Origin: Thermoproteota archaeon
Lineage (GTDB): Archaea > Korarchaeota > Korarchaeia > Korarchaeales > Korarchaeaceae
NCBI GenBank assembly: GCA_027491915.1
Contig: JAOZGC010000002.1
Coordinates: 124,001-188,000, forward strand
Direction of reading: 5' to 3'
DNA: 64,000 nucleotides
Shown here: piece by piece, positions 25,629-26,666 of the stretch
Numbering within the stretch: position 1 is the first letter of the stretch
Layout: every line of letters begins with the position of its first letter
Notes under the pieces: generated by a model
Seen by the model: only the letters and a program-made list of their open reading frames with translations
The model's database searches: none
Told to the model about the DNA's origin: nothing
Position numbers and translations under genes: made by a program

Positions 25629-25640
25629 CGTTATAAACTC
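25629..25640 (-). promoter_or_regulatory. TATA box for tRNA-Ser
   Basis: AGTTTATAACGT on the minus strand overlaps the last codons of cbf5 and is positioned for transcription from about 25609. Confidence 0.55.
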
Positions 25641-26666
25641 TTTCTCTCCTCCCCCCCAGATCCCTTCGGCCAGACCCTGGGATAGATTCCCCTCTCCATT
25701 ATTATCCTCTCCGGGACCGCGGCCACCCCCCTCTCTAACGTGAGGACTTCCTTCGTTCTCCGGGACGCCCTGGCCGTCCCTATCACCTCTCCCTTGAGGG
25801 TTTTCAGGAGGACCCTCTGGCCGGGCGAGATCCCAGGACTGAGCATCGCCACTCCCCTAACCTTGAGGCTTGCCCCGTGGACCACGCTCTCGACTGCGGT
25901 ATCCTTAACCACCATGACCGGGAGATCGGGTAGGACCTCCTCCACCGGCCTGACCACCTTCCTCAGGAGATCCTCGTTACCATCCTCCCTCCAGATCCTG
26001 ACCGCCCTGCGCAGATCCTGCAGCGTAACGAGCTCCTTCTCCCCTATATCACCGACCCTCACCCGCCTGAGCTCCCTCATGCTACCTCCTACACCCATCA
26101 CTTCCCCTATGTCGTAGAACAGCTTTCTGATGTATGTTCCAGCCTCGACCTCGGCTCTTATCAGAAAGTATCTTCCGTCTATTTCATCCAACACCTCCAT
26201 AGAGAAGATCCTACGGACCCTGAGCCTCCTCGAGACCGCAGACTTCACTGGGGGTCTCTGATATATCGGGCCGATGAATTCCGAGAGGATGCGCCTTAGA
26301 TCGGAGACGTCCACCCTATCATGGAGGTAGAGAACTCCGACGTACTCCTTGCTTTCTCCCGCCACAAGATCGGCCAGTCGGGTCGCTCTTCCCAGAAGTA
26401 TCGGGAGGACTCCGGTCACCTTGGGATTTCCCCGGCGAGATCCCTAGGGTCCCGCAGTGACCCATTCGATCGATCCCCAGGATCCTCCCGACCCACCTGG
26501 TCACGGTGTGGGAAGTGGGCCCCCTGGGCTTGTCCAGCTTCACCACCCCGTACCTCAGTAGGAGGTCGGGCGGACGCTCGCCAGGGGGAAAGCCGTGGGG
26601 ACCCGGCTCGGCCTCCTCCCTGACGACCAAATCTCTGGGGAGCCAAGGATCGCCTCCCTTCATCAA
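25631..26666 (-). CDS. cbf5: H/ACA RNP pseudouridine synthase Cbf5, split by an intron
   Basis: Catalytic subunit of H/ACA guide RNPs. Exon 1 (26666-26444) encodes YGVVKLDKPRGPTSHTV through RMGHCGTL; exon 2 (26427-25631) resumes with the rest of the catalytic DPKVTGVLPILLGRAT motif, the core domain and a C-terminal PUA domain. The two lie in different frames; removing 16 nt (26428-26443) joins them to an intact 339-residue protein of normal length and restores the catalytic Asp codon G|AT. A bulge-helix-bulge structure surrounds the junction (see intron feature). Unspliced mRNA would stop at 26319 without the catalytic Asp. The start codon ATG 26666 overlaps the eL14 stop by 4 nt. Confidence 0.93.
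26428..26443 (-). other. 16-nt archaeal pre-mRNA intron in cbf5 (BHB motif)
   Basis: Intron GGATCTCGCCGGGGAA. The flanks fold as a canonical bulge-helix-bulge. Outer helix: GGGA (26453-26450) with TCCC (26426-26423). Central 4-bp helix: CCCT (26449-26446) with GGGG (26433-26430), including one G-U pair. Each strand has a 3-nt bulge (AG|G and AA|A) with the cut after the second base. A further 6-bp helix GGTCAC/GTGACC (26462-26457 with 26419-26414) clamps the structure. Only these boundaries restore TLDPKVTG. The inner side is essentially a 9-nt loop. Confidence 0.88.

Follow-up and report, generated by a model that had tools for sequence, protein, structure and literature searches.

The cbf5 gene of a korarchaeote is divided within its catalytic Asp codon by 16 nt that very probably constitute a spliced intron, orthologous to the crenarchaeal cbf5 intron and inherited vertically within Korarchaeota. 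Judged by its sequence, the insert is the known archaeal cbf5 intron and no new kind. It is the range of this intron that appears to be new.

The interrupted cbf5 gene

The initial annotation named no strand; cbf5 is encoded on the minus strand of the window, the 64,000-nt stretch of korarchaeal DNA that was analyzed. The gene runs from an ATG at 26663, which overlaps the stop codon of the upstream ribosomal-protein gene, to a stop at 25631, and is interrupted by GGATCTCGCCGGGGAA at 26443..26428. Its neighbors are ribosomal-protein genes, secY and a tRNA-Ser gene, a setting usual in archaea. On the minus strand the junction context is ...GGTCACTGC GGG ACC CTA G / GGATCTCGCCGGGGAA / AT CCC AAG GTG ACC... 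The gene is composed of the following parts:

26444..26663, minus strand: cbf5 exon 1, 220 nt, in frame with exon 2; its final base is the G of the Asp codon
26428..26443, minus strand: predicted cbf5 intron GGATCTCGCCGGGGAA, 16 nt, placed by the junction and by comparison across genes
25631..26427, minus strand: cbf5 exon 2, from the AT of the Asp codon to the stop, placed by frame and domains

The initial annotation held that two cbf5 frames join exactly when 16 nt are removed. This is the case: no excision other than that of GGATCTCGCCGGGGAA, between the G and the AT of the Asp codon, regains CTA GAT CCC (L D P), and the result is a single Cbf5 of 338 amino acids. The joined protein contains the DKCLD, TruB_N, TruB_C_2 and PUA domains, all above curated cut-offs, matches the solved archaeal Cbf5 2apo_A over its full length (E 1.6e-98), and also aligns with eukaryotic CBF5/DKC1. 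In the unspliced gene, the downstream part is a 262-residue frame by itself and the upstream part continues into a different frame. No relative was found among viral contigs. A group I or group II intron was considered and rejected because 16 nt is much too short for a self-splicing core.

Fold around the splice sites

The RNA of the minus strand forms 4+4 pairs, the exonic GGGA/UCCC and the exon-intron CCCU/GGGG, which correspond to the 4-bp outer and 4-bp central helices described initially. Of the two 3-nt bulges described with them, one is merely formal, having no stable inner helix to close it. The elements of the fold are positioned as follows:

26450..26453, minus strand: outer helix, 5' exon strand GGGA (fold)
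26423..26426, minus strand: outer helix, 3' exon strand TCCC (fold)
26446..26449, minus strand: central helix, 5' exon strand CCCT (fold and covariation across introns)
26430..26433, minus strand: central helix, intron strand GGGG (fold and covariation across introns)
26443..26445, minus strand: bulge at the 5' splice site, AG/G, closed by no stable inner helix (the cut follows residue two of the bulge, in agreement with PMC2738675)
26427..26429, minus strand: bulge at the 3' splice site, AA/A (fold and register)
26434..26442, minus strand: intron loop GATCTCGCC, with no stable inner helix (fold)

The mean pair probability of both helices and a distal 7-bp stem is 0.95 at 37 °C and 0.75 at 80 °C. 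A 49-nt segment of the minus strand folds with -24.4 kcal/mol compared to -16.9 ± 2.7 for shuffled sequences (z -2.78; 4 of 200 shuffles as good), an excess that is not significant once the flanks are lengthened. Folding of the plus strand of the intron region gave nothing. The distal stem, GGUCACU/GGUGACC, was tried as a conserved element and dropped, as on visual inspection the comparison locus L013 does not preserve it.

On the intron side no helix that would leave a 3-nt bulge was found, the favored fold having a 2-bp GG/CC stem there. The structure thus departs from the strict (canonical) BHB motif in that the exonic helix is present and the bulge-compatible intronic helix is absent. Since the intron side has no stable helix, the motif is relaxed, with the 5' splice site in a hairpin loop, a feature that speaks against a spliced intron.

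Covariation of exon and intron

The comparison covered 98 distinct introns of 13-67 nt, all at one shared nucleotide, and 108 intronless genes. In the central helix 389 of 392 pairs form, compared to 359.9 ± 2.1 (maximum 367) when the introns were shuffled among the genes 2000 times, a test that ignores kinship. Where the wobble position of the Thr codon has C, T or A, its partner in the intron is G, A or T, respectively (79, 9 and 9 cases, with one exception), and the first Leu base, C or T, is matched by an intron G or A in 92 and 6 cases. Compensatory pair types are therefore C-G/T-A/A-T at one pair of the central helix and C-G/T-A at another, and they recur in genomes of Korarchaeota, Bathyarchaeota and Asgard archaea. 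The outer helix keeps 3.14 of its 4 pairs in intron genes versus 2.13 in the 108 intronless ones; the Leu codon is CTA in 85/98 and 12/108, respectively. All 22 in-phase introns contain an in-frame stop, which carries little weight because most loci were chosen for a short open frame; among the 32 loci fetched without this filter, the in-phase introns have a stop in 8 of 8 cases.

The idea of a BHB-type intron dividing the catalytic Asp codon is thus strongly supported by the exact junction, the helix register, another 97 distinct introns at this nucleotide and the compensatory changes. These data also bear on two readings in which there is no intron at all. One is that the 16 nt is an assembly or sequencing error within an uninterrupted cbf5. 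The genome is indeed of draft type (4 contigs, 91% complete), but the insert coincides to the nucleotide with the site of a known intron, where eight further korarchaeal genomes likewise have inserts, of 15-33 nt. Furthermore, all four central-helix pairs form, which a random insert would achieve about 1% of the time even before the exact site is required. An error is scarcely credible under these circumstances. It is equally hard to credit that cbf5 is a pseudogene, through decay or a frameshift, or that it is read by programmed frameshifting, even though the insert does break the reading frame. The genome contains a single TruB-family gene, cbf5 itself, which should therefore be functional; both its exons are open and none of its domains falls below the cut-offs. 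Frameshifting would neither delete 16 nt nor rebuild the Asp codon, and some of the homologous introns are in phase and contain stops.

The probable splicing machinery

The same genome encodes both a splicing endonuclease and the RtcB ligase, which adds to the case for a BHB-type intron. The endonuclease is encoded by one gene, at G000 contig 1, 14024-14836, with two PF01974 units, a layout found also in the other 14 korarchaea with an endonuclease match (15/15 in total), whereas two separate endonuclease genes are the rule among Thermoproteota and Asgard genomes that have the intron. The C-terminal unit of the korarchaeal protein keeps the catalytic Tyr, His and Lys motifs. Its best matches are 3p1z_B and 3ajv_B, which we take to be structures of the Aeropyrum pernix (A. 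pernix) endonuclease, and it has the loop FWGHPMGVEKPKP/YYGQPLDVEKPRG in common with them. This loop is the one linked to broad specificity. Such a korarchaeal enzyme, a homodimer with this loop, has been described (PMC4033280).

Work from 2009 linked the cbf5 intron to hetero-oligomeric endonucleases encoded by two genes (PMC2738675), and the single-gene, two-unit enzyme of Korarchaeota therefore counts against splicing of the window's insert. The link may, however, be better put as a link to the loop.

We infer that these 16 nt are removed from the mRNA as an intron by the tRNA-type splicing pathway of archaea. The pre-mRNA of cbf5 would fold into the exonic 4-bp helix, the 4-bp central helix of exon CCCU and intron GGGG, and the bulge/loop pair. 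The korarchaeal endonuclease would presumably cut each bulge behind its second nucleotide, AG/G and AA/A, after which RtcB would ligate the exons. The catalytic Asp and the remainder of Cbf5 would then be encoded by the spliced mRNA only.

Distribution among archaea

The intron caller was run on genomes which we take to be those of A. pernix, D. mucosus, S. hellenicus, I. aggregans and C. lagunensis, and returned 38, 16, 36, 39 and 29 nt, equal to the published sizes. It returned 0, as published, for a genome (G007) presumed to be K. cryptofilum.

A comparison with cbf5 of related metagenome-assembled genomes (MAGs), which the initial annotation had proposed, revealed the intron at the same nucleotide in nine of the 27 korarchaeal genomes that gave a match to cbf5; its sizes are 16, 21, 21, 33, 20, 22, 23, 15 and 15 nt. 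Each of the five families in the phylum-level group includes a carrier. Two korarchaeal genera are intronless, Korarchaeum (g4) and Methanodesulfokora (g5); the latter is represented by Ca. Methanodesulfokora (Korarchaeia; G010), of the same family as the window's genome.

Some 30 further families of Thermoproteota have the intron as well, among them named Bathyarchaeota, Methanomethylicota SJ3.Bin21 and Thermofilaceae MAGs; many Thermoproteota loci were chosen for short frames, so that frequencies are not population estimates. Among Asgard archaea it was found in 13 of the 141 sampled genomes and in one Sigynarchaeota MAG; the named carriers are Jordarchaeia and the Asgard MAG LC30. None of 96 Halobacteriota has an apparent cbf5 intron, as judged by open-frame length. 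Contamination of MAGs may affect single genomes. Two Asgard genomes, G522 and G553, were rejected as carriers: each has a second cbf5, and the intron-bearing copies group with Thermoprotei or Bathyarchaeota and probably lie on contaminant contigs.

Published cbf5 introns measure 16-44 bp, with 16 in Desulfurococcus mobilis and mucosus (PMC2738675), so the statement that known ones are tens of nucleotides long was mistaken. The published minimum is 16, and candidates of 13-15 nt exist. They are L222 (G064) with 13 nt, L223 (G282) with 14 nt, and L033 (G027) and L034 (G028) with 15 nt each, the last two being korarchaeal. The published maximum of 44 is exceeded by L181 (G424; 67 nt) and L167 (G400; 57 nt).

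An insertion of another kind was observed in some Asgard Cbf5 proteins, namely an in-frame intein of about 500 residues with a LAGLIDADG domain, located at TYIRKL/C in L253:104-2611 (minus strand; G490), L254 (G520), G517, G572 and G516. Pfam identifies it as Intein_splicing (6.2e-18) and LAGLIDADG_3 (3.2e-18).

Origin and descent

The window's intron is probably orthologous to the crenarchaeal one. Vertical inheritance within Korarchaeota is the most likely course, from an intron in an ancestor of the TACK (probably also Asgard) archaea, followed by repeated, precise losses, for example in Korarchaeum and Methanodesulfokora. The intronless korarchaeal locus L005 has GGGACCCTAGATCCC, which is identical to the joined exons of the window over at least 15 nt and is likely the scar of such a loss.

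Transfer of cbf5 from Crenarchaeota to Korarchaeota could be imagined, as the two groups share hot habitats. It is very unlikely, because an AU test rejects the grouping of korarchaeal and crenarchaeal intron genes as a clade without the intronless korarchaea (p = 0.0009), a result that covers the whole gene and not the intron stretch alone. Korarchaeal Cbf5 from three families (f1-f3) forms one clade with a support of 80, which together with the AU rejection indicates that the gene is no recent acquisition from crenarchaea. A real intron gained independently in many lineages at a favored site is a less likely but realistic alternative to inheritance from a TACK/Asgard ancestor. The range is patchy; the Cbf5 tree of 116 sequences is weakly resolved and requires at least 17 changes of intron state, which also weighs against single descent; and the intron interiors are too short and too variable to show homology. 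Nevertheless, the nucleotide, the phase and the helix register are identical in all cases found, and they, like the scars of precise loss exemplified by L005, favor one old intron that was lost precisely many times.

The wide range suggests that this one old intron originated before the TACK/Asgard split and was lost many times. We consider it more likely than not that a single homologous intron was present in the TACK-Asgard common ancestor, on the line towards eukaryotes, that its place and pairing were kept through many losses, and that in Korarchaeota it is removed by the one-gene, loop-bearing endonuclease.

In the published view the cbf5 intron was gained in the ancestor of Desulfurococcales and Sulfolobales. 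Its presence in Korarchaeota, Bathyarchaeota and Asgard archaea points to a much deeper origin, so that it is probably much older than thought and may be the oldest intron in a protein-coding gene that can be traced in archaea. Korarchaeota, previously recorded as intron-free from one species, now include carriers. In many archaeal genomes cbf5 may be mis-annotated as split or truncated. The intron also offers a clean test of how the type of endonuclease limits mRNA introns and how introns vanish precisely.

Comparison with known introns

The pre-mRNA intron of crenarchaeal cbf5 was reportedly described by Watanabe in 2002. According to the later survey, it occurs in Desulfurococcales and Sulfolobales, where it separates the first letter of the codon for the catalytic Asp from the second, and the cut in this class falls after the second bulge nucleotide (PMC2738675). 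Unpublished results quoted there state that cDNA agrees with the predicted splicing, including that of D. mucosus; Korarchaeum cryptofilum, the one korarchaeal species surveyed, is given as 0 (PMC2738675). A later paper counted crenarchaeal cbf5 as the only other mRNA case besides HVO_1309 (PMC7714728). No report of a cbf5 intron outside crenarchaea was found in the literature searched, which covered few subscription papers and preprints.

The window's intron resembles the crenarchaeal one (Yokobori 2009, PMC2738675) in gene, position in the Asp codon, helix register, cut position and overlapping size. It differs in that its host is a korarchaeote with a one-gene endonuclease. The carriers reported here extend beyond the published Desulfurococcales/Sulfolobales set up to Asgard archaea, and their sizes go down to 13 nt. 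With archaeal tRNA introns of the relaxed BHB (bulge-helix-loop) type the window's intron shares the exonic and central helices, one splice site in a loop, and a size within their range, quoted as 11-175 nt (PMC2738675); unlike them, it lies in an mRNA and breaks a catalytic codon. The 5'-UTR BHB intron of Haloferax volcanii HVO_1309 is likewise part of an mRNA that serves as a substrate of the archaeal splicing endonuclease, as the cbf5 mRNA of the window presumably does, but it is situated outside the coding sequence and in an unrelated gene (PMC7714728).
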